From Planctomicrobium piriforme (GTDB taxonomy: Bacteria; Planctomycetota; Planctomycetia; Pirellulales; UBA1268), in the NCBI GenBank assembly GCA_945869735.1, contig CAMBPQ010000006.1, forward strand, positions 1-64,000: a stretch of DNA of 64,000 nucleotides, given 5' to 3'. The position numbers and the translations under genes are program-made. Below are positions 30,390 to 64,000 of this stretch, piece by piece (within the stretch, counting starts at the first letter, position 1; the number at the start of each line of letters is the position of its first letter). The notes beneath the pieces are model-generated. The model had not been told where the DNA came from and searched no databases. It was given only the letters and a program-made list of their open reading frames with translations.

Positions 30390-31415
<1,026 letters not shown>

Positions 31416-42970: not shown

Positions 42971-42973
42971 GAC

Positions 42974-45326: not shown

Positions 45327-45382
45327 CCGAGCCTCCTTCTGGCCGAGGTGTTACCCTCCTGTTCAGCTTCCAATCCAAGGGT

Positions 45383-47116
<1,734 letters not shown>

Positions 47117-47237: not shown

Positions 47238-48434
47238 CTAGGGCCGCGACCAGCGGATGTTCGTGGCGGCGGCGAGTCTCGCCATCGTTGCGGCGGCCTC
47301 GGCAGGCGGTGCGGCGTCAATCGCCCAGATGATGTCGAGCGTGCGGCCGGCAGCCGCGCGGCAGCGACGCCGCGATTCGAGCGACGCCGCGAACCGGGCG
47401 AGCACGTCGCCCGCGGCTTTTTCTCCCGTGATCACGGTGCAGCCGCGACCGAACCATGCCGATTCGAAGGCGAGCTCTGCGAGCGACGGATCGGCCGCCA
47501 ATTCCACGGCTGAAAAATTCCGCACCGGTGTGGAGAGCCCAAACCGCCCGAGCGACACCCACGGCAGTTCCGACCGCCCCGCGAGCGGGTCGGCCGCCGC
47601 AAACAAGAGGAACGATTCCCCGCGCCGCACAAGCGACTCGAGCCAAGTGGGCAGCGCTTCGAATCCCCCCGGCGGGAGCGACACCACATGTTCCTTGCCG
47701 GCGAGGCCGTCGACGGGCGTGCCCGCGAGCGGCAGGGGCCAAACGGGATCGAACGTGCTGTTAAATCGGCGGACGTATTCCATGCCAACGAGACCGAGCG
47801 CGACGACAAGCGCGGTCCATGCCACGCCCCGGTTGCCGCGATCGAAACGGTCGGCGACCACGAGCTGCGATTCCGGCAGTTTCCGCACGTCGCGTTCCGG
47901 CTCGACATCGGCCGCGGCCGGATCGGCGCCGCTGGCGTCAGTCGCCTCCGCGTCGCTGCTCGGGGCAGCCGTATCACCTGTGGCTGCCACCTTCACGGAG
48001 GCACGGGCTTTCTTGCCCCGGGCGCGGTAGGCGGGAATCTTCTCGAGCTGCTCCTCGACCGCGCGCTCGTAGGCCCCCTCCTCCTCGGCCACCGTCACGC
48101 CCGCCACGTCGGCCTGGTCGGCCGCGGTGTCTTCCGCGAAGCGGATGTTCGCGGCCCGGCCGCGGAGCTTTTCCTGAACCGCCTGCGTCCCCGCAGCCTC
48201 GGCCGCGAGCACCTCGGCCGAGCGGTCGATCTCGATCGAGCGAATGCTCGTCGACGTCGCCGCAGCGAGCACGACCCCAGCGGCTGCCAGCCCCGCAGCC
48301 GCGACCAGGCGGGGCCAGCGGTGGCGGTGGGCGATGCCGGCGACGAGGAAACAGAATGCGCCCGCCCAGGCCGCCGCCGAAGCGAGGCCCAAGAGGCCGA
48401 AGGTCTCCCAGAGGATGGCGAATGTCGACGTCAC
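47238..48434 (-). CDS. Membrane protein at the end of the ExbBD operon
   Basis: A 398-residue protein. Two N-terminal membrane spans (FGLLGLASAAAWAGAFCFLV and LVAAAGLAAAGVVLAAATS), a middle acidic region of about 130 residues with AEEEGAYERAVEEQLEKIPA, a third helix (VAWTALVVALGLVGMEYV), and a C-terminal domain that looks globular with a mixed alpha/beta pattern. No family is recognised; the general build recalls DUF4350-like proteins. The GTG at 48434 overlaps the stop of the DUF4159 gene (GTGA), a sure sign of coupling. It is the last gene of the operon. Confidence 0.75.
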   Translation of the reverse strand: MTSTFAILWETFGLLGLASAAAWAGAFCFLVAGIAHRHRWPRLVAAAGLAAAGVVLAAATSTSIRSIEIDRSAEVLAAEAAGTQAVQEKLRGRAANIRFAEDTAADQADVAGVTVAEEEGAYERAVEEQLEKIPAYRARGKKARASVKVAATGDTAAPSSDAEATDASGADPAAADVEPERDVRKLPESQLVVADRFDRGNRGVAWTALVVALGLVGMEYVRRFNSTFDPVWPLPLAGTPVDGLAGKEHVVSLPPGGFEALPTWLESLVRRGESFLLFAAADPLAGRSELPWVSLGRFGLSTPVRNFSAVELAADPSLAELAFESAWFGRGCTVITGEKAAGDVLARFAASLESRRRCRAAAGRTLDIIWAIDAAPPAEAAATMARLAAATNIRWSRP

Positions 48435-50026
48435 TTGCGGTGCTTTCGCGTCATGTCGAGGTAGTTGGTGAAGGCGTGGTAGATGATGTTCACGCCGAGC
48501 CGGTACGACTGCTCGCACAGCTCGCGGCTCATGCCCGAGCCGCCGGTCTTCCAGGCGTCGTTGATGTCGCCGGGGTGGTAGAAGACAGCCCAGCGGTTTT
48601 GGTGCTTCACGCCGAGCGCCCGGTCGCCGCCGTGATGCCACAGCGGTGGAGCGCCGTCGGGAAACGTGAACGGCCCCTGGAAGATCGGGTCGTCGTCGGC
48701 GATGGTCACGAGCTGCCGGTCGGGAAACACCGCCGCCATCAGGGCGGTGAAGCTGTTGTGGAAGTGCGGGCTACCGGCATCGGCGAAGAGCATGCCGCCA
48801 TCAAGGAGATAGTCGCGGAGCACCTTGACGTCGCCCGCCGAGACCGGGATCGAGCCCGCGCCGGTGAGATACAAAAACGGCGGCGCGAATCCCTTGTCGA
48901 AGTTCCGCAGCTGCTGGATCGTGCGGGCCTCGGGCACCTTGGCGATCTTGAAGCCGGTCACCTTCTTGAACTCCTCCATGAAGTTCATGTCGGCCCGCGA
49001 CGCCTCGTCCATACCGTCGTCCCAGCCGGGGCCGTTGTGCTTGATCCGGAAGAACCGCACCGGATCCTTCCCCACGCCGTCGGGCCAACCGCCCTCCTTG
49101 CCGCCCCCCTTCCCCATCTTGCCCGCCGCGCGGGCCTGGGCCGAACCCGTGTCGGCCGTGTAGGTGATTTCGGAGGCCTTCTCCACCGTCTCCTCGACTT
49201 CGGAATCCTTGTCGAGGTCGGGCTTCGAGAGGATGATCGCCGAGTTGAGGTTGAGGATGTACCGCTTCTTTTTCTTCTTCACCGGCTTGGCCACCTGCAC
49301 GACGGCAGCCACCGCCTCCTCGCCCGAGCCGTGCGGCACGTTGTAGCGCTCGCGGCAGCCGATGTATTGCATGAGCCACGGAATGATCACGATCAGGAGC
49401 ATGTGGCTCCAGAAGCTGCCGAGCCAGCTCTTGCGAAACAGCGGATCGGCACCGCCGGTGCGGACGTTCTCCACGATCACGTCGCCGACCGCGGCCGGGG
49501 GCTCGCCCGCGTCGCTGCGGCGCCGGGCGAACGACGCGATCGTCGATCCCCGCCAGCTCTGCACGTGGCCGAAGAGGGCCATCGCCAGCGTCAATAGCGC
49601 CGGCCCGACGAGGCTCCACCAGAGCGTGAAGAGCGTGACGGCATCCTGCTGCAGGCCGTCGACCATGAGTTTCTTTTCGCCGATCACGCCGACGCCGCGG
49701 GTGACCAGCACGAGCCAGGCCGCCAGCCCCAGGTAACTCGTCCAGAAACCCAACCGCACCAGCCGCAGCGCAAACCTCCCCGGCAGGAACGCGGCGAGGC
49801 CGCCGGCTACGGCCACGACGGCCGCCACCGCGAGCAAGACTCCCACGCCCTGGGCGTGCGTGGTCACCCCATCGGTGGCAAACGGCTCCACGAGCCCGGG
49901 ATGAAGCGCGGCGAGCCAGTCGGCCGCTTGCCACAGCCGCCAGGCGCATGCGCCGCCGATCGCCGCGAGCGCCAGGAGCGTCGCGGCGAGCGTGGCCCGC
50001 GCGAGAATGGAGGGGGAAAGACGCAC
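48431..50026 (-). CDS. Membrane-anchored DUF4159 protein
   Basis: A 531-residue protein with hydrophobic spans near the N-terminus (LAATLLALAAIGGACAW, GVLLAVAAVVAVAGGLAAFL, FWTSYLGLAAWLVLV, LWWSLVGPALLTLAMALFG) and one at about residues 205-225 (HMLLIVIIPWLMQYIG). After a lysine-rich linker (KPVKKKKKRYILNL) comes DUF4159: ADMNFMEEFKKVTGFKIAKV, PPFLYLTGAGSIPVSAGDV, LRDYLLDGGMLFADAG, NRWAVFYHPGDINDAWKTG. The DUF4159 part therefore probably lies in the periplasm. A second DUF4159 protein sits beside moxR at 31630. The GTG at 50026 is the start; the gene is 7 bases downstream of the TonB-like gene. Confidence 0.82.
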   Translation of the reverse strand: MRLSPSILARATLAATLLALAAIGGACAWRLWQAADWLAALHPGLVEPFATDGVTTHAQGVGVLLAVAAVVAVAGGLAAFLPGRFALRLVRLGFWTSYLGLAAWLVLVTRGVGVIGEKKLMVDGLQQDAVTLFTLWWSLVGPALLTLAMALFGHVQSWRGSTIASFARRRSDAGEPPAAVGDVIVENVRTGGADPLFRKSWLGSFWSHMLLIVIIPWLMQYIGCRERYNVPHGSGEEAVAAVVQVAKPVKKKKKRYILNLNSAIILSKPDLDKDSEVEETVEKASEITYTADTGSAQARAAGKMGKGGGKEGGWPDGVGKDPVRFFRIKHNGPGWDDGMDEASRADMNFMEEFKKVTGFKIAKVPEARTIQQLRNFDKGFAPPFLYLTGAGSIPVSAGDVKVLRDYLLDGGMLFADAGSPHFHNSFTALMAAVFPDRQLVTIADDDPIFQGPFTFPDGAPPLWHHGGDRALGVKHQNRWAVFYHPGDINDAWKTGGSGMSRELCEQSYRLGVNIIYHAFTNYLDMTRKHRK

Positions 50027-50033
50027 CGCCGCC

Positions 50034-50450
50034 TCAGTTGGGGTTGGTATCTTCGATGCTCAACCCGAGATCGTCGGGGGCGGAGGGGATCTCCTCGGGC
50101 TTGGCCGCCTCGGTCGTGGCCTTTTCGATCGGCGTCTTTGCCTCAGCGCCGGCCTGCGGCTCGGCGGGCTTGGCCTCGGGCTGCCCTTCGGCAGGCTGCG
50201 ATGCGGCAGCCTCGGCCGGCGCGGAGGCGGCCTTCACGGCTGCAATCGCCGCTTCCTTCCGCACCTTCGCCCCCTCGGGGTCGAGCCAGTCGCGAACCGT
50301 GCCGACGGAGAACCCGCCGATCACGATCGCATGGAGCACAAGCGCTGCCAGAAACCAGCGGACGAGGTGGCTTTTGGAGAAGCCCAAGAGCAGGTCGTCG
50401 GGCGAGATCTGATCGGCCGACGTGGCGGCGCGGGGGGATGGAGCGGTCAT
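50034..50450 (-). CDS. TonB-like anchor without C-terminal domain
   Basis: A 138-residue protein with the N-terminal design of TonB: a cytoplasmic start, one membrane helix at about residues 29-49 (SHLVRWFLAALVLHAIVIGG), then a periplasmic Ala/Pro/Glu-rich stretch (AASAPAEAAASQPAEGQPEA, KPAEPQAGAEAKTPIEKAT). It stops at DLGLSIEDTNPN, with no TonB C-terminal domain that could contact an outer-membrane receptor. AGAGGAAACC precedes the ATG. It lies between the exbD genes and the DUF4159 gene. I infer an adaptor that takes energy from ExbBD; this is not demonstrated by sequence. Confidence 0.72.
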   Translation of the reverse strand: MTAPSPRAATSADQISPDDLLLGFSKSHLVRWFLAALVLHAIVIGGFSVGTVRDWLDPEGAKVRKEAAIAAVKAASAPAEAAASQPAEGQPEAKPAEPQAGAEAKTPIEKATTEAAKPEEIPSAPDDLGLSIEDTNPN

Positions 50451-50503
50451 GGTTTCCTCTTTCTTGATGTCCTGTCGTTCTATTTTTTCGTTTACGGTTT
50501 CGT

Positions 50504-50923
50504 TTACGGTTTCGCCTGCGATGCCTGCCCGACGGCGGCGATCACGCCTCCGCCCTTGGAGATCGCCGCCAGCACCGGCTCGAACACCTTCTTGTCGACG
50601 CCCTGGTCGCAGCGAAACACCACCATCCGGTCCTTCATATCTTTCTTGCCGGCGAGAAAGCCGGCGACGCCGGCCTCGATCGTGGCCGGGGAGGCGACCG
50701 GCCGGCCGTTGAAGAAGACGCCGCCATCGGCGTCGATTGACACCGACACATTTTGATTCTCCAGTTGCGCGAGCTCCCGCGCGTTCGGCGGCTTGATGTT
50801 TCGCGTGTCGTCCTTTGCGAAGTTGCTCGTGAGGATGAAGAAGATCGTCAGCAGAAACGCGATGTCTCCCATGCTCGCCAGGGGCACGGCGGGGGCGACG
50901 CGGCGCGACTTGCGGAGTTTCAT
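50504..50923 (-). CDS. exbD: ExbD/TolR-type protein, second copy
   Basis: A 139-residue protein with the family layout: basic cytoplasmic start (MKLRKSRRVAPAVPLASMG), one membrane helix DIAFLLTIFFILTSNFA with the proton-path Asp20, and a periplasmic domain with VSVSIDADGGVFFNGRPVAS and MVVFRCDQGVDKKVFEPVLA. It overlaps the other exbD gene by four bases (ATGA), and ends before the TonB-like gene. Two ExbD proteins per ExbB fit the stoichiometric need for a heterodimeric plug. Confidence 0.93.
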   Translation of the reverse strand: MKLRKSRRVAPAVPLASMGDIAFLLTIFFILTSNFAKDDTRNIKPPNARELAQLENQNVSVSIDADGGVFFNGRPVASPATIEAGVAGFLAGKKDMKDRMVVFRCDQGVDKKVFEPVLAAISKGGGVIAAVGQASQAKP

Positions 50924-51336
50924 TCTCCCTCCTCCACGATCGCCACGATGCCGCCGGCCGCGCTGATGGCGGCCATCGTCTCGTAGTAGATCTGGTAGTC
51001 GACCTTGCCGGCTGTTTCGAGCATCACCACCCTTTCCTCCCCCTGCTTCTTGGCGAGTTGCAGGTCGAGGAGCCGCTCCTGGAGGGCGGCCATCGACACC
51101 TCCTGCTCGTTGAAGAGCAGCTTGCCGTTGGTGATCTGCACGGTAGGGGTCTTCGCATCGGTCTTCGCGGCCTGCTGCTGCGCGGCCGCACCCGATGGAA
51201 GCTCCGCCGTGAACCCGGTGAGCTTGCTCATCGTGGTCGTGAGAATGAAGAAGATGATCAGCAAAAACGCGATGTCCGACACCGAATCGGTCGGGATTTC
51301 GAGTTCGCGTTTTTCCTTGCGCCGGACGAAGGGCAT
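50920..51336 (-). CDS. exbD: ExbD/TolR-type protein, first copy
   Basis: A 138-residue ExbD-like protein. The start MPFVRRKEKRELEIPTDSVS leads to the membrane helix DIAFLLIIFFILTTTMS with the conserved Asp21. The periplasmic part has PTVQITNGKLLFNEQEVSMA, LQLAKKQGEERVVMLET and AISAAGGIVAIVEEGE. It follows exbB by 15 bases and overlaps the second exbD. The two ExbD proteins differ clearly in their periplasmic parts, so they are unlikely to be redundant. Confidence 0.93.
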   Translation of the reverse strand: MPFVRRKEKRELEIPTDSVSDIAFLLIIFFILTTTMSKLTGFTAELPSGAAAQQQAAKTDAKTPTVQITNGKLLFNEQEVSMAALQERLLDLQLAKKQGEERVVMLETAGKVDYQIYYETMAAISAAGGIVAIVEEGE

Positions 51337-51351
51337 GGCAGGGTGACCTTG

Positions 51352-52068
51352 TCAGGCTGGCGAGGCGGGTCGGGCGGCAACGGCAACGGCAGCGGAGGCT
51401 CCAGCGGCCGGCCGGGGCTGGGTCGCGGCCCCCTGGCGGAGCGTGATGTAGTCGAGCAGTTCGGAGGCCGCCTCCACCATCTCCGATTCGACGGCGCCGG
51501 CCCGCGAGGTGAGATAGTGGTAGGGCACCACCGCGATGAGCGAGATGATGAGGCCCGCGGCCGTCGTGATGAGGGCCTCGGAGATGCCCGCCGAGACCGT
51601 CTCGTTCGACACGCCGCCCACGGCCATGCCGGCGAAGGCGCTGATCATGCCCGTGACGGTGCCGAGCATCCCGAGCAGCGGCGCGGAGCCCGCCACGAAC
51701 GAGAGCACTCCGAGCCGCTTGTTGAGCGCCGAAGAGGCGACTTGCGAGTAGTTTTCCATGGCGTCCTCGACGAGCGCGCGGCAGATCTCCGGACGGCCCG
51801 CCGTCACCCGCGCGAATTTCGCATAGGCCTGCAGGCCCGCGAGCATCACCGCCGACACCGGCCCGGGCGTGCTCGCGCACAGCGACATCGCCTCGCCGAC
51901 CTTGCCACCGGCGAGCAGTTCGAGCACCTTCGACCGCAGCGATCGCGAGTCGACCTTGTCGTTGCGGGAGAAGGCGATCCAGCGGTCGATGACGACGGCC
52001 ACGGCGAGCACGCTTTGCAGCATGAGCGGCGCCATCATAGAGCCGCCCTTGATGATTGTTTCAAGCAT
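51352..52068 (-). CDS. exbB: ExbB/TolQ/MotA family proton channel
   Basis: A 238-residue MotA/TolQ/ExbB-type protein. Helix 1 is MAPLMLQSVLAVAVVIDRWI; the conserved helix 2 region reads LGVLSFVAGSAPLLGMLGTV, TGMISAFAGMAVGG; helix 3 is ALITTAAGLIISLIAVVPYH. With ExbD it forms a channel that turns the proton gradient into motion. The ATG at 52068 overlaps the preceding gene by eight bases. The C-terminal tail of about 30 residues is Ala/Pro-rich. Confidence 0.95.
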   Translation of the reverse strand: MLETIIKGGSMMAPLMLQSVLAVAVVIDRWIAFSRNDKVDSRSLRSKVLELLAGGKVGEAMSLCASTPGPVSAVMLAGLQAYAKFARVTAGRPEICRALVEDAMENYSQVASSALNKRLGVLSFVAGSAPLLGMLGTVTGMISAFAGMAVGGVSNETVSAGISEALITTAAGLIISLIAVVPYHYLTSRAGAVESEMVEAASELLDYITLRQGAATQPRPAAGASAAVAVAARPASPA

Positions 52069-52465
52069 CGGAAGGGGTTCCTGGGGAAGTCGGGGTGGAC
52101 GGACTGGCGAGCGCCACGAGCGCCCGCGCGAGGAGCGGATCGAGCCGCACCGGAGGAATGTCGGGGCCGGAGGGAACGGGCGGAAAGCCGAGCTCGCCGG
52201 TCACGTGGTTGTAGACCGCGCGGGACAGCGCCGCGCGCGGCAGCTGGATCAGGGAGGGCCGCGGGCCGGCCGCGGCGAGCACGAAGCTCTTCCCGACCAC
52301 CGCCGCCCAGACCTGCCCGCCCCGCAGCCAGCCGCCGGTGTCGATCCGCGTCGCCGAGGGGGCCGCGAACTGCACCGGCGCGTCGCCGAGACCGTGGGCG
52401 GCCAGCAGATCGCGGACGGCGGCGGGCAGGGCCGTCGGTTCGACGGAGTTGAGCGTGGCGGTCAT
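52061..52465 (-). CDS. Small unknown protein before exbB
   Basis: A 134-residue protein with no signal peptide or membrane helix. It begins MTATLNSVEPTALPAAVRDL and contains ATRIDTGGWLRGGQVWAAVV, GKSFVLAAAGPRPSLIQLPR and AALSRAVYNHVTGELGFPPV, a mostly beta pattern. The start ATG overlaps the giant gene's stop (ATGA) and its own end overlaps exbB, so translation is coupled on both sides. I do not recognise a family. The W/G-rich core recalls small beta-barrel (PH-like) domains; this is only an impression. Its conservation in the operon could show whether it is a cytoplasmic partner of ExbB. Confidence 0.7.
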   Translation of the reverse strand: MTATLNSVEPTALPAAVRDLLAAHGLGDAPVQFAAPSATRIDTGGWLRGGQVWAAVVGKSFVLAAAGPRPSLIQLPRAALSRAVYNHVTGELGFPPVPSGPDIPPVRLDPLLARALVALASPSTPTSPGTPSDA

Positions 52466-55400
52466 TGCCCCTCGTTCTCCATCTGCCCCTCGACAGTCAC
52501 CATCGCATCTTCCGAAAGCCGGCCGCGGGCGAACTTGGCCCACTTGCTCTCGGGGAAGTCCCAGGTGAGCTTCTTGAAGTTGCGGTAGGCGTTCTTGGGG
52601 TCCTTCTGCTGCAGGCAGACGTCGCCGGCCCAATACATTGCCTCGGCGGCAAGGTCTTTTTCCGTCTGCGGGTCCTTGGCGATCCCCTCGAAGCCCGCCT
52701 GCGCCCGCTTGAAGTCCTTCGCCCGCATGTAGCACTGGGCCGAGAGCATCTTCGTCTTGGCAGCGAGCGAATGCCGCGGGAACCGCTCGCTCAGCCGGCC
52801 GAAGACCTCGGCGGCCGTCGTGAACATCTCGCGGCCCCTGATCGCCACCTTCTCCTTCTCGACCCGGTCGGTCTGGGCGTTCGACTCCTCGTCGAGCTGC
52901 TTCCCCTTGGCGAGGAAGTATTGGCCGAGGCGGGCGATCGTCTCTGCCACGAGCTCGTTGTCGGGGTAGCGGTAGGAGAGTTTGACGTACTCCTCGCAGG
53001 CTTGGTCGATGTCGCCGAGCGTCTCCAGCACGAGCGCCTTCTTGTACTGGCTCTTCGGGGCATACTCGCTGTCGGGATGGCTCGACACGATGTTGCTGAA
53101 CCGGGCGACGGCATCGAGGGCATGCTGCCGCTTGACATCCTCGTTGGCGGCCTCCTTCGAAAACTCGAACGAGAGGTTCGCCAGCAGGTAGTCGGCCTGC
53201 GCCCGGGCCTCGGTGTCGGGATAGTCGCGGATCGCCTCTTCGAGCAGTTTCTTGCCTTGGGTGATCTCGCGGCGGGCGAGGCTCTCCTGGCCGAGCTCGC
53301 GGTGCCGCTTGGCCAGTTCGAACCAGGCCTCCGCTACCGTGAACTGCGTCTGCACGGCGATCGTGGGATCGTTGAACCGCTTGGTAAACGGCACAATCCG
53401 GCCGTCGCCCCCCTTGAAGATCTCCACCGTCCGCTCGATGGCTTCGCCCGCCGGCGGCTCGTAGCGGATCTTCACGGTCTCGCCGTAGGCGACCGGCAGC
53501 CCACGGTCGCCCGTCGCCGGGGCGTCGGCCGCGACCGGGGCTTCGTTGTCGCGGTAGAAGAGCCTGACCACTCCCTTGAAGACGCCCGAGTGGCCGAACG
53601 TCTCGGCGAGCTGCAACTCCAGTTCACCGCCGCCCGAAGCGGCCAGCCGCACGGTCGCCGTGTCTTTGTCGTCCGACACATCGAGCGACGGATGGATGAG
53701 CCGCACGTGCAGGCTGTCGCCCACGAACGTCCCCACGACCGCGTTCTGATAACGGTCGTCCATGACGTCGAAGATGATGTCGGAGGTGAGCTTCACCGGC
53801 TGGACGATCCACTTCTCGCCGCCGTCCTTGGCCGTAGAGCGATAGCCGACGTAGATCGTGTCGTTGCCACGCACCTGGAGCGTGGGGGGTTCATATCGCA
53901 GTCTGAAGTCGTTTTCCGTCGTGAGCGACTCGTCCGGCTCGTCCGGCACGGCTCCGAGCTCCTTATTCACGAGGAACACGTAGCGGCCCTCGGCGAGCGG
54001 ATCGACCGCGAAGCGGTTGCCGCGGACCACTACGTTGCTCACGCCGGGGGGCGGCTGGATGCCGCCCACGTCGCCCGGATGCCGCATGAGCCGGATGGTG
54101 CCCGGCACGTCGAGCGGAAACTCCCCTTCGCCCACCGGCCGCCCGAGTTTCTCGCGGCCCGCCTCGGTCTGCACGAAGATCTCGGCCATGCTCTCAGCGC
54201 TCTTGGCGATCGCGGGCGCGAGCAATTCGACGAGGAGCGGGCCGTCAACGAGCACCTGTGCCGGGCTGTCGGCCTCGGCCATCCTGTCCGGCCGCACGGC
54301 CACGATCTCCCGGGTCACGGGCACGAATTCGCCGAACCGGCGGCCCACCTCCCGTGTCACGACGACGGCCTTGCGCTCCGCCTCGTCGAGCGGACGACTG
54401 GCCACGTCGAAGACCCGCAGCTGTGCGTCGTCGGCCCCGGACTGTTCGACTAGGCTCGTCCGCTCCCAGGGGATGCCGGGATCGGTGTTCTCGCCGTCGA
54501 GATAGGCGATGCGCAGGTCCTCGCCCGGCTCCACCGTCAGTTCCGTCGGCCGCTGCGGCTCCCCGGCCACCGGAAAGACCGTGCCGATGAAGATGCCGGA
54601 GTGCGGCTCCGTCTCGAGGGCCTCGACGGTGATCGGCTTGCCGCGGCCCGCCTTTACCGTGAAGCTCACGCGGTCGGGCTCGGGCGAGGTGTCCATGTCG
54701 GGGTCGCCGATGAACATCTTCACCGTGTCGCCCACCGCGAACCGCCGCATCGGCACGTACCGGGTCCGCCGCTCGCCGTTATGTTCGATAAACTCGACGA
54801 ACGCGGCCGAGACCTCGGCGTTGGTGAACGTGGCGGTGAGGAACTTCTCCTGTGTGGCCCGCTCCTTCGTGATCACCGTCGGATCCTCGTAGATCACCGT
54901 GAGCTTGTCGCCCGGGATGATCTCGAGCACGTCATTCTTGGCGACGTCGAGGAAGCTCCGCTCCGTCGGCAGCACCTTCTTGCCCTTGGCATCGACGAGG
55001 GCGATGGTATTGATCGCTGGCGCGTCCGTTTCGAAATCGGCGAGGAGGAGCCGCACAACGCGGGCCCGCGAGCCCTTCGCGAAGGCCACCTCGAACGCCG
55101 AGCCGTCGGCATTCGACTTGATCTCGGCCGGGGCCGTGCCGAACGCCTCGGCGACCGCCGGATGCTTCTCGATGGAGAACGTCTCCTTCGGGATCGAGGC
55201 GGTGAACGGGGCCTCCGGGGCGTCGATGAGCACCTCGAACTTGAACGGGTCGTGCTGATAGGCATACACGTAGACGTCGATCCGATGCACGCCCTTGGTG
55301 AGGACCTGCTCGATCTTCAGGGGCGCCTGCGGATTCGCCGAAGACTTGCCGTCGATCGCGAAGACATACTTGTGGTGATCCGGATTGCCCTTGGGATCGA

Positions 55401-58400
55401 GCGTGAACGACCGCGTCTGCGGCTTGTCGATCTCGAAGCCCGCGACCCAGTGGCCGACGTACCAATTCGAATTGATCTGCATGGGTCCGGCCAGGCCGTT
55501 GAGGGTCTGGTCGAGCGGGCCGACGGCGAGCGAGTCGATCTTTCCCAAGACGAGCGGCGAACCCGTCGCCAGCCGGCCCTTCTCCAGGTAGTCGGCGAAC
55601 TGCGCGGGCGATCCGAACGGCACCGGCTGGCCGACCATCCGCGCGAACTCCGCCCGCGGGCCGCCGTCCCACGGCACGAACGTCGCCTTGCCGTCGGCCC
55701 GCCACTGGCCGACGGTGCGAAAGTCGCGGCCGTTGAGCGAGGTCTGCACGTAGACGTCCTTGAGCTTGCGGCCGGGAACATTCGCGGCGACGGTCATCTT
55801 CCCGAGGGCGACGTTGTCGTTGAGATCGACGGCGAATGTCTTCGGCCGCTTGTTGTCGGCGAGGCCGATCCAGGGCGTGCCCGACGCGGGTCCAATGACG
55901 TTATTGGGATCGTTGCCCTCGGTCGAATCAGAGGCGTAGGCCGTCGCCTGCCCGGAGCTGGTGGGCACCTGGCCCTCGAAGACGCCCGTGTAGGGGCCCG
56001 TCTCCGTGAGTTTCACCACGAGGCTGTCGCCGCTGGCGGTCGTCGCGCGGACGGCGATCGTGTCGGGCTGGGGCGTCGTGCCGCGGTCGGGATCGACCAC
56101 CCGGATGTTCACGGGGTTGCCGGGCTTGACCTGGTCTTCGCTGCGGTTCGCGGCCAGCGACGTGCTCTGCGGCGCGCCCTGGTCGAGCTCGAGCTTCGCG
56201 CGGATCATCTTCTCGAGGGCCCTGTTCTCCAGCTCCTCCTTCGTGAGGATCGCGCCGCTGGAGGCGAAGACTTCCGCGTCGGTGACGACGGTCATCGCCG
56301 CCGGCTCCTCCACGTTGCCCTTGGAACCCGCGGTAAACGACTCGGCGAACGTGTAGCGGACGGTGTCGCCGCCGACCAACTGCAGCACGTGGTCGCCCTT
56401 GGTGGGGGGGCCGAGCTGCGTGGGAATCTGGCCGGTGAACCGGGTCTTCGAATCGCCGACCGGGAAGAGGTTGAACCGTTCCTCGTCGCCGCTGGCCGTC
56501 CAGGCGCGGATCTCGATCTGCGCGGCCTTGCCGACGACGGCGAGGTTTCGATCCTCGAGGTCCACCTCGAGCGGCTTGCCGGGGATGAGGAACTTCTTGT
56601 CGCCGAGCACGCCGAGCTTCACTTTCGCGGCCACGTCGTACCTGCGGCGCAGGAGGTTGAGCTTGCCCTCGAGGATCCGGCCGCCCACGTGGTTGGGCAC
56701 CCGAGTGAACACCTCCTGGAGGAAACCGGCCGCCTCCTCGATCTCCTCCTGGTCGGTTTTCAAGAGTGCCAATTGATAGAGGGCCTCTGCCTGGAGGTTT
56801 CTGTCGGGCCGCCGCGAAAGCCGCTGAAGTTGTTCGCGGGCGCGGTCGAACTGCCGGGTGAGCCGGTCGACCTCAGCCACCCGCAATTCAGCGTCGGCCT
56901 TGCCGGCCGAGCCGTCGAATTCCTTGGCCGCCGCGAGCCGCTCGTCGAGGGCCCGGGCCTGGGCATCTTCGCGGCGGGCCAGCGCGATGTCGGCATAGGC
57001 GACGAGCAGGCCGGCCTGGGCCTCCGCGGCGAGCACGCCCGGCGCCGACTCGGTCCAGGCGAGCAGGAGCTGGCCGAGCTCGCGGGCGCGGTCGTAGTTG
57101 CCCGTCGCGGTGTTCTCGCGGATGAGCCAGGCCGTGAAGTCAGGATTCAGCTCCTTGTAGATCTGCGTCACGATGGCGGGATTGGTCATATAGAGCTGCC
57201 AGGCCCCCTGCGGCTTGCCGGCGGCCAGCTGTACCTGTGCCTCGTAGATCGCCCACCGCGGATCGTTCCGCGGCACGGGGTTGCCGCCGCCGAGCGCGAG
57301 CAGGGCGTCGGTGCGGATCGCCGCCAGCGGGCTGCGGGCGCCGTCGGGCAGGAACGAGCCGAGCATCTGCAGGCCGCTCTCGGCGATGGCGGCCGCGATG
57401 CCGGTCTTGCCGGCCCTGGCGAGCCCCACCGGGATGGCCGCGAGCTGGACCGTGAACGGCGGGTTGTTGTTCTCCCGCGGAACCCGCCAGAGTCCACGAA
57501 ACACCCGCGGCAGGTCGGCCTCGCGGCCGCCGGCCTGCAGGGCCTGGGCGATGACCGCACCATTCCACTCGGCGGGCCAATTCGACGGCTGCGGGGTGTC
57601 GAACACCGCGGTGACCACCGCGATCTCGTCGGCCGTGAGCGTGGGGGCCGGTGGATTGTCGGGGAAGATCGCTCTGAGCGACGGCGCGGCCGTCCGCGTC
57701 GGAAAGGCCTTGCGCCGCTCGAGGAGGGCCGCGACCTTCTTGAAGTAGTCGGCCCGGGCCGCCGACGACGCGATCGCCGCCGGCTCGGTGGGGATCGAGG
57801 CATAGCCCATGGCAACGTTATCGAAGCGGGTCTTGCCCCAGGCCTCCTCGGCGGCCGCGACCAGTTTCGCCCCCGCTCCCCCGGGGGCGGCGAGCGCCCG
57901 GCCGTACCAGTTGCCGACGTCGACGGCTGTCCACGTCGGCGGACCCGTGACGGCATCGCGGCGGTCACCGGCCACGAGCACTTGCGGCAGACGGTCGTAC
58001 TGCTTCGGGGCGTTGGGCCCGGCGGCGAGGCCGGGGAAGCCGGCGAACATCTCGGCGGCGAGCGTCGCCGCCTTCTGCTTCTGATCCGGGCTGTAGCTTA
58101 AAAACTGCCAATCGAGCCAGCCGCTCGACTTCGACTCCTCGACGAACATGTCGTCGAAATAGGTCTCGGGCGGGTAGGTCTTCGCGAGCGGCTGAAACTC
58201 GTTGCGGATCAGCCACTGGTAGCTGGCCGTGGCGCTTGCATGGGCGACGGACTGCTTGTGGACGAGCAGCGCCTTCGTGTCGACGAGCTTGGCCATCACC
58301 TCCTTGCCCGCCTCCTGATCCCGCCAGCCCGCCCCCATCTTCGTTTGGCGGAACAACCCGAAGAGTTCGGGCTCGAATCGGCTCTTCTCCAGCTGCGCGA

Positions 58401-60522
58401 GGATTCCCTTGCCGATCACGGCGTTGAGCTTGAGAGCCTGGCCCTTGCGGTCTTTGGGAACGTTGGAAAAGTGGCCGCCCGGTCGTCCGCTTTCCAGCGC
58501 ATACTCGATCGCCTTCAGGGCCGCAGTCGGCTTGCCCGGCTGCCACAATGCGATCTGGTCGGCGATCACCTCGGCTTGGAAGTCGGCGATCTCGAGGCCG
58601 GTGGCGCCGCTGCTCAACAGCCACTTGAGCGCCGGCCCGGCGAACGGCGTCTTCTGCGCCGGAAAGCCGCGGACGAGCTTGTAGGCCTCGCGGCCGGCGG
58701 CGACGTAGGCATCGGCCTTCTTCTCCCGCGCCGCCTGCACGCAGCGGCCGAGGTGCATCGCCAGCGGGTCGGCGAGTTTGGCCCAGTCGGCGCTGGCCGG
58801 CACGTTCACGTCGAACGCCTTCTTAAACTCCTCCTCCAAGGGCACGATCTGCGCGGCCGTCTTCTCCCACGTCGCGACCGCGTCAGCCCGCGCCTTGTCG
58901 GCGGGAGCCGCCTGGGCGGCCGCCTGGGCGTTCTTGAGCTGGGTGCGGGTCTGCTCGGCCCACTGCTTGAAGGCGGCATGGACCGGCGTGATCGCGGCGG
59001 TGCGGGTCTTCTTGTCCCACGGCACCCAGTCGAGCCGCCGCAACTCGGCCGCGAATGCCGACTTGTCTTCCGGCGGGGCCGCGGCAAACGCGACGGCCAG
59101 GCAGCCGGCCGCCGCCTCCGGCTGGAAGAGCGCGATCGGCGTGCGGTAGACCCCCTCGGGCGCCCAGGCGGCCAGCGCCTTGTTCCAATCGGCGTCGGTC
59201 GTCGCGGGCTGCCGCGGAAACGTTCGGTAGATACCCCACAGCCCGTTGGCCGCCCCCCATGTGGAGGCGAATTCGCCGTGCCAGGTTTCGGCCTGCGAGA
59301 GATGCTTGAGGCCCGCGGGGAGATCCGTGCCCTTCGTCGCGGCCACGGCATTGACAACCTTCGCCGCATCGGACTCGACGCCCAAGAACAGCGTCGCCTG
59401 CTTCGCGAACACGGCCGGGTCGGGCTTGTTGACCAGCAGCGGCAGGCCGCGGGTGCCTGCAGCATTTTGGAACACGGCGGGAAACTTCGCGCCGAGTTCC
59501 ATCCACTGCTCTGGCGAAGCCTGGAAGTTCCACCAGCCGTTCCAGCCGTTTATCGCTTTCGCCTTCTCGTCGTCAGGCAGTTTCTCGAACGACGCCGTCC
59601 ACAGGCCGGTGATCGGCCCGCCGATCGTCTGCCAGGCCTGGTGGCCGTTGGTGCCGCAGAAAAACGTGTTGAGCATGTCGTTGAGCACGGCGGCCGTGGG
59701 CGCGGCGTCGACGTAGGCCGCGGCCGCGGCCGCGACGGGAGCGAACGCCGCGGCCTGCGCGGCCGCATCCTTGCCCGCGACCGCCGCCTGGAACTCGAGC
59801 CAAGAGGTGATGAATCCATACCGCGCGGCCAGCGGCGGGCTCTCCCGCACAAGGCCCACGATCTGCCGGGCCGCCGGCGCCGCGGCATGCCTGTCGGGCG
59901 TGGCGCGGGCGAGCTCGCCCATCGTCGCGTCGAGACTCTCCCAGTAGAGATTCCGTTCGAGCTCCAAGGGCAGTTTTTCGGCCATCACCGCCGCGAGGAT
60001 CTGCGCCGCCGTGACGGAATCCTTGCGGGCCACGGCCTGCTCCAAAAACCAGCCGTCGAACTGCCGGGCCTCGAGCGACTGCCGCAACTCCAAGCCGTTG
60101 CGGACGAAGAACGAATAGGCGTCGTCGTTGCTCTGCAGGCAGCCCACGAGAATCTCGTAAAGCCGGGCCGCCACGCGGCTGCGGGCCTCGTCGGCCGGCA
60201 TCCCGGCGATGCCCCGCTTGTAGAGCGAGGCTGCGGCCTGCAGGTCGCCCGCAGCGAGGGCCGTATCGCCCGCGGCGACGAGCACCCCGGCCGCCGGCGA
60301 CGGATGGCGTGCGAGCCAGGCCTTGAGGGCGATGTTGGCGGCATAGGCATCACCGCTCTTGCCGGCCTGCGACAGAAACTCCACGACCTGTGGCTCGGCA
60401 GCGTCCGGTGAGAGCTTCGCCTGCTGCGGCTCGGCCGCGTGGACCGCGACGAGGTGGGCCGCGACGAGGTGGGCCGCGACGAGGCAGGCCGCGACCGCGA
60501 TGCGAAGAAGCGAGGTGTTCAT
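52462..60522 (-). CDS. Giant secreted TPR / Ig-like repeat protein
   Basis: A protein of 2,686 residues. It has a signal peptide (residues 1-28) whose hydrophobic core is built of VAAHL repeats. Residues 30-1300 are helical, with TPR-like patterns at both ends (AGDTALAAGDLQAAASLYKR; AEALYQLALLKTDQEEIEEA). A beta-rich central part follows, with a repeated Ig-like module near residues 1310, 1470, 1930 and 2270 (for instance VVDPDRGTTPQPDTIAVRA, IGDPDMDTSPEPDRVSFTV, IHPSLDVSDDKDTATVRLA, each followed by an ET/GxF box). Around 1700-1790 a PA14-like segment occurs (YVGHWVAGFEIDKPQTRSFT). Residues 2385-2686 are TPR_6 repeats. No membrane anchor is seen, so it is periplasmic or exported. The ATG at 60522 fits the signal peptide and GGAGG upstream. 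Confidence 0.85.
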   Translation of the reverse strand: MNTSLLRIAVAACLVAAHLVAAHLVAVHAAEPQQAKLSPDAAEPQVVEFLSQAGKSGDAYAANIALKAWLARHPSPAAGVLVAAGDTALAAGDLQAAASLYKRGIAGMPADEARSRVAARLYEILVGCLQSNDDAYSFFVRNGLELRQSLEARQFDGWFLEQAVARKDSVTAAQILAAVMAEKLPLELERNLYWESLDATMGELARATPDRHAAAPAARQIVGLVRESPPLAARYGFITSWLEFQAAVAGKDAAAQAAAFAPVAAAAAAYVDAAPTAAVLNDMLNTFFCGTNGHQAWQTIGGPITGLWTASFEKLPDDEKAKAINGWNGWWNFQASPEQWMELGAKFPAVFQNAAGTRGLPLLVNKPDPAVFAKQATLFLGVESDAAKVVNAVAATKGTDLPAGLKHLSQAETWHGEFASTWGAANGLWGIYRTFPRQPATTDADWNKALAAWAPEGVYRTPIALFQPEAAAGCLAVAFAAAPPEDKSAFAAELRRLDWVPWDKKTRTAAITPVHAAFKQWAEQTRTQLKNAQAAAQAAPADKARADAVATWEKTAAQIVPLEEEFKKAFDVNVPASADWAKLADPLAMHLGRCVQAAREKKADAYVAAGREAYKLVRGFPAQKTPFAGPALKWLLSSGATGLEIADFQAEVIADQIALWQPGKPTAALKAIEYALESGRPGGHFSNVPKDRKGQALKLNAVIGKGILAQLEKSRFEPELFGLFRQTKMGAGWRDQEAGKEVMAKLVDTKALLVHKQSVAHASATASYQWLIRNEFQPLAKTYPPETYFDDMFVEESKSSGWLDWQFLSYSPDQKQKAATLAAEMFAGFPGLAAGPNAPKQYDRLPQVLVAGDRRDAVTGPPTWTAVDVGNWYGRALAAPGGAGAKLVAAAEEAWGKTRFDNVAMGYASIPTEPAAIASSAARADYFKKVAALLERRKAFPTRTAAPSLRAIFPDNPPAPTLTADEIAVVTAVFDTPQPSNWPAEWNGAVIAQALQAGGREADLPRVFRGLWRVPRENNNPPFTVQLAAIPVGLARAGKTGIAAAIAESGLQMLGSFLPDGARSPLAAIRTDALLALGGGNPVPRNDPRWAIYEAQVQLAAGKPQGAWQLYMTNPAIVTQIYKELNPDFTAWLIRENTATGNYDRARELGQLLLAWTESAPGVLAAEAQAGLLVAYADIALARREDAQARALDERLAAAKEFDGSAGKADAELRVAEVDRLTRQFDRAREQLQRLSRRPDRNLQAEALYQLALLKTDQEEIEEAAGFLQEVFTRVPNHVGGRILEGKLNLLRRRYDVAAKVKLGVLGDKKFLIPGKPLEVDLEDRNLAVVGKAAQIEIRAWTASGDEERFNLFPVGDSKTRFTGQIPTQLGPPTKGDHVLQLVGGDTVRYTFAESFTAGSKGNVEEPAAMTVVTDAEVFASSGAILTKEELENRALEKMIRAKLELDQGAPQSTSLAANRSEDQVKPGNPVNIRVVDPDRGTTPQPDTIAVRATTASGDSLVVKLTETGPYTGVFEGQVPTSSGQATAYASDSTEGNDPNNVIGPASGTPWIGLADNKRPKTFAVDLNDNVALGKMTVAANVPGRKLKDVYVQTSLNGRDFRTVGQWRADGKATFVPWDGGPRAEFARMVGQPVPFGSPAQFADYLEKGRLATGSPLVLGKIDSLAVGPLDQTLNGLAGPMQINSNWYVGHWVAGFEIDKPQTRSFTLDPKGNPDHHKYVFAIDGKSSANPQAPLKIEQVLTKGVHRIDVYVYAYQHDPFKFEVLIDAPEAPFTASIPKETFSIEKHPAVAEAFGTAPAEIKSNADGSAFEVAFAKGSRARVVRLLLADFETDAPAINTIALVDAKGKKVLPTERSFLDVAKNDVLEIIPGDKLTVIYEDPTVITKERATQEKFLTATFTNAEVSAAFVEFIEHNGERRTRYVPMRRFAVGDTVKMFIGDPDMDTSPEPDRVSFTVKAGRGKPITVEALETEPHSGIFIGTVFPVAGEPQRPTELTVEPGEDLRIAYLDGENTDPGIPWERTSLVEQSGADDAQLRVFDVASRPLDEAERKAVVVTREVGRRFGEFVPVTREIVAVRPDRMAEADSPAQVLVDGPLLVELLAPAIAKSAESMAEIFVQTEAGREKLGRPVGEGEFPLDVPGTIRLMRHPGDVGGIQPPPGVSNVVVRGNRFAVDPLAEGRYVFLVNKELGAVPDEPDESLTTENDFRLRYEPPTLQVRGNDTIYVGYRSTAKDGGEKWIVQPVKLTSDIIFDVMDDRYQNAVVGTFVGDSLHVRLIHPSLDVSDDKDTATVRLAASGGGELELQLAETFGHSGVFKGVVRLFYRDNEAPVAADAPATGDRGLPVAYGETVKIRYEPPAGEAIERTVEIFKGGDGRIVPFTKRFNDPTIAVQTQFTVAEAWFELAKRHRELGQESLARREITQGKKLLEEAIRDYPDTEARAQADYLLANLSFEFSKEAANEDVKRQHALDAVARFSNIVSSHPDSEYAPKSQYKKALVLETLGDIDQACEEYVKLSYRYPDNELVAETIARLGQYFLAKGKQLDEESNAQTDRVEKEKVAIRGREMFTTAAEVFGRLSERFPRHSLAAKTKMLSAQCYMRAKDFKRAQAGFEGIAKDPQTEKDLAAEAMYWAGDVCLQQKDPKNAYRNFKKLTWDFPESKWAKFARGRLSEDAMVTVEGQMENEGQ
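60443..60496 (-). repeat. 15-bp tandem repeat inside a signal peptide
   Basis: On the plus strand the unit GCCGCGACGAGGTGG occurs at 60443-60457 (one base changed), 60458-60472 and 60473-60487 (two changed), then partly again. In the gene it encodes VAAHL-type five-residue steps of the signal peptide core. The unit keeps the frame, so copies can be added or lost without harm. Confidence 0.85.
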
Positions 60523-60552
60523 GATTCGTGAGTCCTCCACGGTGGTTCGTGT

Positions 60553-62922
60553 TCAGTTTCCGGATTCGGTTCCGCCGCCGGCCGGCTTCAGCTTGGCTTG
60601 GATCTTCGGCATGATCGCGCGGCCCTTCTCGGCGGCAGCGCTCGCCGGATATTCGAAGAGCAGCTGCTCGCACTTGTCGTGCGCCTTCTGTACGTCGCCC
60701 ATGCGGTAGGCCACCATCACCCACTTCAGCAGCATCTTGTCGAGGAACTGTGCGTCGGGGTAATCCTGGAAAACCTGCTCGAGGAGTTCGCTCGCAGCGG
60801 CGTTGTCCTTCTTGTCGACGTGGTAGTCGATCAGCTTCCCGAGGGCTTCCCCGGCATAAGGGCTGTCGGGATACCGCTCGGCGCAGGTCTTGTACTCGAC
60901 GATCGCCCGCTCGGCCGCCCCAGGCACCGGCTGCCCGGTTTCGGTTTCCTGCGACTCGAGCGCCCGCGCGATCCGATACTGCGCCTCCGCCTTGATCTGC
61001 GAGGCCTTGAGGCCGAGGATCCGCCGGTAGACGGCGATCGCGCCCGCGGTATCCCGCTGATCCTCCTTGATGCGTCCGATCTGGAGGAGGGCCTGGTCTA
61101 CGAACGGCGATTCGGGATAGAGCCTGTTGAACAGTTCGCAGGTCTTGATCGCCGCCTCGTAGTCGCTGGCGGTGATGTGGAGATCCCACTTGATGCGAAA
61201 CGCCTGCTCGGTGAGCGAGGCGGGAATCGCCCCCGACTGCCGGATGATCGGCTCGATCCGCGAGAGCCCCTCGGCCACCTTCTCCTTCGCACCCTTCGAG
61301 AGCCCCATCGCCCGGAAGATACGGCCCAGTTCGAGGAAGGCCTCCGCCTCGACGAGGCTCTTCTTCGCCGCGACCACCGGATCGGCCACCTCGTACTGCA
61401 CGGCCCGCGGGCGGCTGTCGATCTCGCTGCCGACGAGGATCGTCGCCGAGGCCGTCCGCGGCGAGGTGCCGGCGATGTGCCGCTCGTCGCCGAACGTCGC
61501 CACGACCTCGTCGCCGAGGGCGACGGTGAGCATCTGGTCGGCCTGATCGACCGGCTGATCCTCGACGAACCGGCCGAGCGAGAACTGCCCGCGGAACCGG
61601 CCGGAGCGCACGGGGCCCGACGGCACCGCCTCCCCTTCGGATGCGGGCACAAATTCCGTGAGCGGGACGGTGATCTCGTCGCGGGTCCGCCACCGCTGCT
61701 CTTCGCCTTGGAGGAGTTTTTCGAGATCCACTCCCGTGGCCAGCGACTCCTCGGCGTCCTCCTCCTCCTTGAACCGGGCGATCACGCGGACGGTGGCCGG
61801 GTCGGCCGCGTCGGAGACATCCAGGTCGGCGTCGGAAACCGTGACGAAGACGGGCTGCCCCGGAAAGGCGGCGTCGGCGATCGACTCGAAGTCGCCGCGG
61901 GTGAAGGCCACGGCCCCCGTGCCCACCACGCGCACGTCGCGCGACCGCGAGACGTTCTTCTCTCCGTCGAGCGTGTTGCCATCGATGTACGACGTGCTGA
62001 TCGTGTCGCCGCCGATCACCTGCAGGGTACCGTCGCCGGGCTTCGCCTTGCCGAGCGCCGTCGCGACCGAGCCGAGCGAGGCGTGGTCGTTGCCGGGGAG
62101 CGGCACGAGCGAGACGGTCTCCTTGTCGCCGCTCTTGGAGGCGATCGTCACCTTCACGTCCTCGCCGAGATTCGCGAGCACCGGCAGGTCGGTGTCGTGG
62201 ATCTTGACGTAGAACCGGCGGCCGGCCTCGCAGAATTCGAGCTCGTCGCCCGCGTCGTCCACGAACGTGCCGACGAGGCCGAGCGCCTCGATGGCCTTGT
62301 TCCAGTTGCCCTGCGCGAAGTGGCACATGCCGATGTAGTAGTACGACTGATTAGCCCAGACCGTGTTGGGGAAATCGGTGGTGATCCGGCGCAGAAGCGG
62401 GAAGGACTGGGCGTATTGCCGCGTCTGGAAGTAGGCCATGCCCTGCAGGTAGAGCGATTCGAGGAACAGGTCGCGGTCTTCCTTCTCGAGTTCCTTGCCC
62501 GGCTGCTCGAGCGACTTGAGGTTGCGGAGGTAGCCGATCGCTTCCATCTGCTGGCTGCGCGAGAGCGCATGCCTGCCGAGGGCGAGGTAGGCCCGAAACC
62601 GGATCGGATCGGTGGGATACTGCTCGACGATCGTCTCGAGAATTTTCGTGCCGCGGTCGTGCTCGCCCGCGTCGAGCAGCTCCTGCCCCTTGCGAAGCAG
62701 CTGGAAGGCGGCGTAGTTGCCCCCCTCTCCCTGCTTCCCGCCCCGCCCCTGCGGCTGGGCCTGGCCATCGGCCGGGGCCTGACCATCAGCCTGCCCCTGC
62801 TTCGCCTCACCGCGCGAGCGGCGCGGCCGCTGCGCCTCGGCAGACTGCGAGCAGAGCAAGGTCGACGCGATCGCTATCGCCAGCACGCCGGGTCGCATAA
62901 TCGTCATTTGAATTCTCGCCAC
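60553..62922 (-). CDS. Secreted TPR protein with Ig-like modules
   Basis: A 789-residue protein related to the giant one. After a signal peptide (VLAIAIASTLLCSQSAEAQ) and a Gln/Gly/Arg-rich linker come TPR repeats from about residue 70 to 240 (LLRKGQELLDAGEHDRGTKI, YLQGMAYFQTRQYAQSFPLL). Two Ig-like modules follow (YVKIHDTDLPVLANLGEDVK; VFVTVSDADLDVSDAADPAT), then more TPR (residues about 520-780; FLELGRIFRAMGLSKGAKE, AIVEYKTCAERYPDSPYAGE). I prefer the GTG at 62922, with GGAGGA before it and one base after the upstream stop; the ATGs at 62937 and 62907 are alternatives. The stop is 30 bases from the giant gene. Confidence 0.82.
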   Translation of the reverse strand: MARIQMTIMRPGVLAIAIASTLLCSQSAEAQRPRRSRGEAKQGQADGQAPADGQAQPQGRGGKQGEGGNYAAFQLLRKGQELLDAGEHDRGTKILETIVEQYPTDPIRFRAYLALGRHALSRSQQMEAIGYLRNLKSLEQPGKELEKEDRDLFLESLYLQGMAYFQTRQYAQSFPLLRRITTDFPNTVWANQSYYYIGMCHFAQGNWNKAIEALGLVGTFVDDAGDELEFCEAGRRFYVKIHDTDLPVLANLGEDVKVTIASKSGDKETVSLVPLPGNDHASLGSVATALGKAKPGDGTLQVIGGDTISTSYIDGNTLDGEKNVSRSRDVRVVGTGAVAFTRGDFESIADAAFPGQPVFVTVSDADLDVSDAADPATVRVIARFKEEEDAEESLATGVDLEKLLQGEEQRWRTRDEITVPLTEFVPASEGEAVPSGPVRSGRFRGQFSLGRFVEDQPVDQADQMLTVALGDEVVATFGDERHIAGTSPRTASATILVGSEIDSRPRAVQYEVADPVVAAKKSLVEAEAFLELGRIFRAMGLSKGAKEKVAEGLSRIEPIIRQSGAIPASLTEQAFRIKWDLHITASDYEAAIKTCELFNRLYPESPFVDQALLQIGRIKEDQRDTAGAIAVYRRILGLKASQIKAEAQYRIARALESQETETGQPVPGAAERAIVEYKTCAERYPDSPYAGEALGKLIDYHVDKKDNAAASELLEQVFQDYPDAQFLDKMLLKWVMVAYRMGDVQKAHDKCEQLLFEYPASAAAEKGRAIMPKIQAKLKPAGGGTESGN

Positions 62923-62923
62923 G

Positions 62924-64000
62924 TCATTCCTCCGCATCGACGCCGCCTCCGATCGGGAGCCCCATTTCCTCGAGCCGCTGGTGCGCCTCGCTCGACTGGC
63001 CGCTCTTGGGATATTTCTTGATCACGCCGCGGACGGACCGCACGTATTTTTCCTTGGCCCCGGCGTCGCGGTAGAGATAGGCGATCGTGATCGCCGCCTC
63101 CGGCGCACGGTCCTTGAAGAAATTCTCGACCTCCTTCAGCTGCGACACGGCCGGCTCGAGCTTGCCGAGCTTCGCCAGGCACTCCGCCGTCCAGAAGAGG
63201 GTTTGCGGCGGGCTGTCGGCCTGCCGGTAGGAACTGATCGCCTCCTCGTGCTTGCCCGACCACTGGAGCAGGTTGCCGGCAAGCAGGTGGGCCTCCTTGG
63301 CGGTTTCGGGCGACTTTTGCACCTCTGCTGCGATCGCGAGTCCCTCGCTGGTGTCTTTCTCGTTGCGGAAGTGGTGGTGAGGATGGCAGCGCCAGTGGAG
63401 ATAGCGGAGGGCGGCCATCTTGCCCTTCGCGGCGTCGTTGAAGCCGAGGCAGGCCCGCAGCGCGAGGTCGCGGGTGCCGGGGAGCTTTGCGTGCTGCTGC
63501 ATCCAGTCGCAGATCTTTTGCTTCTCGCCGTCGGGCATCTCGGCGAGCTTCAGCTTGCCGAACGTGTTGCCGGCCAGCCCCGCGTCGCCGCGGTTCTCGA
63601 CGATCTCGTAGACGAGCGCGAGGATGTTGGCGTTCGACATCTTCGCGAAGTCGAGCTTACGGTAGTATTCGTCGGCTTTCCCCTTGTCGGCGGCGAAAAG
63701 GCCCACCCAGCGGCCGATCCGGCGGAAATCCCCCTCCTTCTGCTGCGCGGCGAACTGCTTGTCGAGCCGCTGCGCCCAGGCGGCGTCGTCCCGCTCGTAC
63801 ATGCGGATGTAGTTCGCGGCGGCGATCTGCTGGTCGTCGTTCGTCGGCAGCGCCGCCTGCAACTGTCCGGCCCAATAGCGGTAGAAGGCGTCGCGGTCAT
63901 CCTTCTGCACGTCGGTGAACTGGTTGTTTTGGTCGATGAACTGGCGGACCGACCACCAGAAGTCGCCGGCGGTGGCGATGTCTTTTCCCGGATCCCGCGG
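62924..64000 (-). CDS. TPR-repeat protein, start beyond the window
   Basis: The frame is open to the right edge (FWWSVRQFIDQNNQFTDV and DDRDAFYRYWAGQLQ lie near it), so the start is outside. Visible are 358 residues, with helical repeats such as AAANYIRMYERDDAAWAQRL, HLLAGNLLQWSGKHEEAISS, LFWTAECLAKLGKLEPAVSQ and AITIAYLYRDAGAKEKYVRS. It ends GLPIGGGVDAEE. The stop overlaps the ribosome-binding site of the next gene. It is the first gene seen in the operon and more genes may lie upstream. Confidence 0.85.
   Translation of the reverse strand, partial: PRDPGKDIATAGDFWWSVRQFIDQNNQFTDVQKDDRDAFYRYWAGQLQAALPTNDDQQIAAANYIRMYERDDAAWAQRLDKQFAAQQKEGDFRRIGRWVGLFAADKGKADEYYRKLDFAKMSNANILALVYEIVENRGDAGLAGNTFGKLKLAEMPDGEKQKICDWMQQHAKLPGTRDLALRACLGFNDAAKGKMAALRYLHWRCHPHHHFRNEKDTSEGLAIAAEVQKSPETAKEAHLLAGNLLQWSGKHEEAISSYRQADSPPQTLFWTAECLAKLGKLEPAVSQLKEVENFFKDRAPEAAITIAYLYRDAGAKEKYVRSVRGVIKKYPKSGQSSEAHQRLEEMGLPIGGGVDAEE

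Follow-up and report, generated by a model that had tools for sequence, protein, structure and literature searches.

Operon organization

We analysed a window of 64,000 nucleotides (64 kb) from Planctomicrobium piriforme (assembly GCA_945869735.1, contig CAMBPQ010000006.1, positions 1 to 64,000), which is part of a 71-kb contig (C6). One minus-strand operon of ten genes occupies positions 62924-47238, the start of its first gene lying 678 bp outside the window. In order of transcription, it encodes two secreted tetratricopeptide repeat (TPR) proteins, g1 and g2, a giant secreted protein, a 134-amino-acid (aa) protein, ExbB, two ExbDs, a short anchor, a DUF4159 protein and a last membrane protein (Table 1). 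A preliminary description of the window had listed ten packed minus-strand genes, and all are present at the lengths it gave. The giant and 134-aa genes, the two exbD genes, and the DUF4159 and membrane protein genes overlap by 4 nt each; the overlap between the 134-aa gene and exbB is 8 nt, and the remaining junctions are gaps of 7-53 nt. The N-termini of g1, g2 and the giant read as Sec-type signal peptides, in agreement with the three secreted TPR proteins described earlier.

Table 1. Coordinates of the operon genes and of the neighbouring tRNA gene within the window (type-1 modules are described in the text)
Feature	Coordinates	Strand	Remarks
g1, secreted TPR protein, 584 aa	62924..64000	-	start at C6:64678, outside the window
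g2, secreted TPR protein, 784 aa	60553..62907	-	two giant-type immunoglobulin (Ig)-like domains
Giant secreted protein, 2686 aa	52462..60522	-	family found by profile in 21 of 392 genomes
Small protein, 134 aa	52061..52465	-	family unknown; confined to type-1 modules
ExbB/TolQ-like motor subunit, 238 aa	51352..52068	-	PF01618, E=2.2e-25
ExbD1/TolR-like subunit, 138 aa	50920..51336	-	PF02472; TolR
ExbD2 subunit, 139 aa	50504..50923	-	PF02472
Anchor, 138 aa	50034..50450	-	TolA/TonB-type helix, TolA profile match
DUF4159 candidate transducer, 531 aa	48431..50026	-	PF13709, E=2.4e-33; head fold 4i66
Three-helix membrane protein, ~398 aa	47238..48434	-	GTG start at 48434; final gene in type-1 modules
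tRNA-Pro(CGG)	41713-41788	+	synteny with congeners stops; left edge of the variable region holding the module

Motor and candidate transducers

The operon contains one PF01618 match and two PF02472 matches above cut-off. The ExbB is nearest to TolQ, its 92 bits falling below the TolQ equivalog cut-off of 221, and the TolR match (33 bits) likewise falls below its equivalog cut-off of 127. The transmembrane Asp of the proton path is retained in both ExbD1 (SDIAF) and ExbD2 (GDIAF), as it is in both ExbDs of most related modules.

The DUF4159 protein begins with several helices, the final one carrying an S-x-x-x-H motif (SFWSHMLLIVIIPWL). This is followed by a PVKKKKKR linker and by the DUF4159 head, in the position that the C-terminal domain has in TonB and TolA. 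The same arrangement, an S-x-x-x-H helix ahead of a basic linker, is found in 16 of 20 homologues. The anchor consists of a TolA/TonB-type helix (ALVLH) and an Ala/Pro/Glu-rich linker without a globular C-terminal domain. It matches the TolA profile (E=2.6e-6) over helix and linker only (model positions 4-92 of 362), and since the match stops at position 92 it contains no TolA C-terminal domain. In 14 of the 16 homologues, its helix has a His preceded four positions earlier by a small residue, which is Ser in seven of them.

The S-x-x-x-H signature also occurs in the helices of TonB and TolA. It has been described previously, with its His as the motor contact (PMC12204202). A sampling of other proteins from the genome gave 40 S-x-x-x-H matches, of which a single one lies in a hydrophobic segment; it belongs to a transducer adjoining another ExbBD pair. 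On sequence grounds, both the anchor and the DUF4159 protein are likely force transducers.

A relative of the DUF4159 head from the myxobacterium Haliangium has a solved structure (PDB 4i66). This structure was also the sole significant fold match of a shallow, low-confidence AlphaFold2 (AF2) model of the head (predicted local distance difference test score, pLDDT, 57). The DUF4159 transducer has no Pfam match to vWA, and DUF4159 is not mentioned in the literature searched. Elsewhere in the window, a second DUF4159 domain (33463-33861, plus strand) lies inside a 922-aa open reading frame (ORF; 31273-34041) with genus-wide conservation; its family differs from that of the transducer.

Giant and TPR proteins

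Behind its signal peptide, the giant has an N-terminal solenoid, then roughly five Ig-like repeats (~1300-2350), and YbgF/CpoB-like TPRs at its C-terminus. By alignment, residues ~1525-1800 are equivalent to a region that in the giants of relatives contains PA14 (E=6.6e-27) or discoidin F5/8C domains (E=4.5e-19). The Ig repeat, which is shared by g2, matches the Nitrosopumilus S-layer protein 8c8k (E=4e-8) and the Kuenenia S-layer protein Kustd1514 (E up to 3e-9). Its AF2 model (pLDDT 65) has an all-beta fold, with which Foldseek found no useful match. The C-terminal TPRs of g2 score 97.2 bits, above the YbgF/CpoB cut-off of 90.1.

Outside the window, the contig holds the start of g1 and, ~680 bp further upstream (C6:65361-70613), a gene for a 1750-aa secreted FlgD-Ig/PQQ-like protein. 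The latter may belong with the giant, because a homologue also precedes a giant in another genome (G203, L093).

Recurrence in planctomycetes

A profile of the C-terminal half of the giant, run on 392 planctomycete genomes, found relatives of 2500-3000 aa in about 20 of them, spread over many families. The module components are present at the fetched loci, and their order recurs in ~20 other planctomycete loci, which argues that the ten-gene neighbourhood is not due to chance. The linkage of a distinct kind of motor operon to giant TPR/Ig proteins across planctomycetes, as proposed in the preliminary description, is thereby borne out, and so is that of the non-Exb genes to exbBD in relatives. 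Most of these relatives are draft genomes, in which contig ends truncate some of the modules.

Two arrangements were observed. Type 1 has the order g1-g2-giant-(small)-ExbB-ExbD1-ExbD2-anchor-DUF4159-(membrane protein) and includes the window and L084-L088, L090, L091, L144 and L145, with short contigs giving a partial view. Type 2 (L007, L030, L080, L089, L095, L148, L149) has the order ExbB-ExbD(-ExbD)-anchor-DUF4159, with g1 at the end where visible and g2-giant ahead in several. The g1 homologue thus stands first in type-1 modules (L099, L100, L101, L102, L105, L106) and last in type 2. Type-1 anchors end in a conserved C-terminal motif, roughly KPEEIPxAPDDLGISIDETN (also written KPEEIPxAPDDLG.SIE.TN). 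The anchor and the giant are found in both types, the 134-aa protein in type 1 only. The neighbouring genes that flank the modules differ between loci and do not recur.

In a tree with 13 further planctomycete ExbBs, mostly TPR-linked, all 20 module ExbBs fell into one clade (99/98). Furthermore, when 294 genomes were searched with a profile built on the entire DUF4159 protein, strong full-length matches came from 17, all of which contain the giant, the next-best matches spanning the DUF4159 domain alone. The probability of this co-occurrence by chance is P=6.7e-25, assuming independent genomes, which these are not fully. Tandem duplicates were also seen: two successive giants in G242 (L091 1-14915) and two successive DUF4159 transducers in G068 (L087 13397-16626).

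Genome context

The genome is 95% complete. Searches of the whole genome gave no match to TonB_C, to the TonB-dependent receptor barrel or to TolB_N, and none of the operon proteins has a TonB C-terminal domain, as the preliminary description had also reported for the window. It had allowed for a complete TonB and receptor just upstream; there are no TonB, receptor or Tol genes upstream of the operon, the next gene being that of the FlgD-Ig/PQQ-like protein. The module contains no OmpA-like or Pal-like protein, the genome not having been searched for PF00691.

Four other MotA_ExbB loci were found in the genome. At two of them (C94, C48) ExbBD is paired with S-x-x-x-H proteins carrying an alpha/alpha-toroid (SQHop_cyclase_C) domain, and similar toroid-bearing proteins occur in other genomes (L032, L042). 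The alpha/alpha-toroid is possibly another type of transducer head. With such proteins both here and in other genomes, head-swapping of transducers looks general in planctomycetes. The ExbBD-linked S-x-x-x-H proteins with SQHop_cyclase_C-like domains lie at L044 4412-6049, L046 10960-13797, L032 13277-16936 and L042 14148-17315.

History of the locus

Searches of 21 congeners found neither the giant nor the full-length DUF4159 protein. Synteny of the contig with congeners, at about 71-91% identity, extends as far as tRNA-Pro; there the matches stop, in several congeners exactly at the 3' end of the tRNA, and the sequence that follows differs among the congeners examined (G009, G018). Since none of the 21 congeners was found to carry the module, and since the region that holds it, next to tRNA-Pro, is variable, horizontal acquisition of the module is likely, and is the simplest reading. 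The ExbB of the window clusters with type-1 modules of other classes, while the module carriers of its own class (G323, G045) are of type 2. The GC content of the module region resembles that of the remainder of the genome.

A mis-binned contig was rejected, since the synteny with congeners extends to tRNA-Pro and the GC content matches. A classical tRNA island with att repeats was rejected as well, because no directly repeated copy of the tRNA 3' end was found on the contig.

The sequence from tRNA-Pro onward resembles an integration or rearrangement hot spot. Directly after the tRNA lies a multi-copy element (~41826-42981), possibly a transposon remnant, which recurs within this genome on C113, C120 and C124, as well as on numerous congener contigs (~73-88% identity). 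It is followed by a short ORF (44271-44597, plus strand) with early and late RecQ helicase motifs and no middle part, which reads as a RecQ remnant. Finally, a FAD-dependent oxidoreductase-like gene (45236-47116, plus strand) appears to be split between two frames (45236-45736 and 45794-47116), suggesting a frameshift or a pseudogene.

Proposed mechanism and alternatives

We consider it rather probable that the ten genes together specify an autonomous proton-driven machine, which would transmit force across the envelope, by way of tethers and TPR proteins, to the giant as its load. The motor would sit in the inner membrane, formed by a pentamer of the single TolQ-like ExbB together with two different ExbDs. 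The short anchor, with its conserved C-terminal motif, and the DUF4159 protein would dock on the motor side via their TolA/TonB-type helices. These tethers would then pull on g1 and g2 in the periplasm and, through them, on the giant. The giant, with its Ig repeats and glycan-binding modules, may contact glycan or the outer envelope, and the machine would most likely serve to move a surface polymer or polysaccharide, either along the envelope or through it.

The giants had initially been proposed to replace the usual partner of the motor. We set this aside, as it is the helices of the anchor and the DUF4159 protein that bear the TonB/TolA signature; with two TolA/TonB-type transducers encoded, a position downstream, as the load, is more likely for the giants. 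We tentatively put forward a further, less probable version, in which a giant glycan-binding protein of S-layer type is pulled by a pair of transducers, DUF4159 and a headless mini-TonB. Such a machine would constitute a class of its own beside Ton, Tol and Agl-Glt, and would provide planctomycetes that lack TonB receptors with a horizontally mobile engine by which polysaccharide is moved along the envelope or across it.

Several observations weigh against a force-transmitting machine of this kind. In a sister clade (G045, G323, G277; L030, L080, L089) the DUF4159 helix lacks the His, and the two anchors of this clade that were examined (L080, L089) lack it too, so coupling is not uniform and docking may differ there. 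Solitary giants occur away from a motor (L081, L082, L083, L092), the genomes of solitary giants (G120, G188) holding motor modules elsewhere, and UR.bin147 has one ExbD. The module encodes no outer-membrane protein. Finally, the giant of the window aligns to the PA14/discoidin region but scores weakly, the glycan-binding domains being clear only in relatives.

Among other explanations, an Agl-Glt/Nfs-like machine is possible, though we rate it as doubtful; its motor would pull TPR and glycan-binding proteins along the envelope so that the cell glides or becomes wrapped in polymer, and would import nothing. The layout is as in Myxococcus xanthus, including a giant TPR protein, the 4132-aa GltI (PMC3169522), and glycan-binding modules would suit a surface polymer. 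However, the motor, tethers, g2 and giant of the window have no NCBIfam gliding match at E<=0.01 (Glt sequences were not directly compared), there is no FHA/TonB GltG, and GltI, unlike the giant, is listed as lacking a signal peptide. Rather unlikely is the periplasmic uptake of large polysaccharides, with the module standing in for Ton-SusCD where TonB receptors are missing. This reading is attractive because the route by which planctomycetes bring dextran and chondroitin sulphate into their periplasm is unknown and, for dextran, sensitive to CCCP (carbonyl cyanide m-chlorophenyl hydrazone) (PMC5394234, PMC5520146). The lack of TonB_C and receptor in this genome and the PA14/discoidin modules of the giants agree with it. 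However, the module has no outer-membrane channel, no recurring CAZyme (carbohydrate-active enzyme) cluster was seen beside the module loci, and its sporadic distribution means that it is not the general planctomycete uptake route. As to function, movement of a surface polymer as in Nfs/Glt and uptake are equally plausible.

A Tol-Pal equivalent serving outer-membrane stability or division appears improbable. The TolQ/TolR-like motor, the TolA match of the anchor, the YbgF/CpoB score of g2 and the missing TolB would fit, yet a housekeeping role should be kept, and searches of 21 congeners found no full module, which is present in about 5% of the sampled phylum and contains neither TolB nor a Pal-like protein. 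An ordinary neighbourhood, with a TolQR pair beside unrelated TPR genes, is very hard to reconcile with the near-perfect co-occurrence of the components, their order in distant families and the separate ExbB clade, even though TPR-ExbB-ExbD pairs are common in planctomycetes.

Under the proposed force-transmitting machine, DUF4159 gains a testable role as the head of a force transducer. The module likewise becomes a concrete candidate for force-driven polymer handling in bacteria that import macromolecules, in a genome without a TonB route.

Comparison with known systems

The Zorya (ZorAB) defence system was rejected, as there was no PADLOC match. With ExbBD-TonB, the module shares the ExbB/ExbD families and the transmembrane S-x-x-x-H signature, but the genome lacks a TonB C-terminal domain and receptor. 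With Tol-Pal, it shares the TolQ/TolR-like motor, the TolA-like helix and linker and the CpoB/YbgF-like TPRs; it differs in having no TolA C-terminal domain, in the absence of TolB from the genome and in its sporadic distribution. The S-layer proteins of Nitrosopumilus (8c8k, PMC11153153) and Kuenenia (Kustd1514) have in common with the giant the match to its Ig repeat. However, the giant has TPR solenoids as well and is encoded within a motor operon, and lattice formation is not implied.

The AglRQS-Glt/Nfs machinery of Myxococcus has a comparable inventory: an ExbB-like subunit and two ExbD-like ones, a transducer resembling TonB, several TPR proteins and a giant TPR protein. Here the giant is secreted and has Ig and glycan-binding domains, and the DUF4159 protein has no named counterpart (PMC3169522). 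As the architecture alone agrees, with no gliding family match in NCBIfam for the window proteins (Glt sequences were not directly compared), membership in Agl-Glt was not adopted.

Finally, TPR-tolQ-tolR-tolR-vWA clusters of the Planctomycetes-Verrucomicrobia-Chlamydiae (PVC) group, planctomycetes included, were described in 2025 as a new class of force transducers (PMC12204202). Like the module, they have a TPR gene followed by a single tolQ-like gene and by two tolR-like genes that differ from each other, and a transducer with a TonB/TolA-type helix. Here, a DUF4159 head replaces vWA, and the module also contains an anchor that has no head, two more TPR proteins and a giant TPR protein with Ig and glycan-binding domains. 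The idea of exchangeable heads would thus extend from the published vWA to DUF4159 in this module and to the alpha/alpha toroid in the other ExbBD clusters of the genome.

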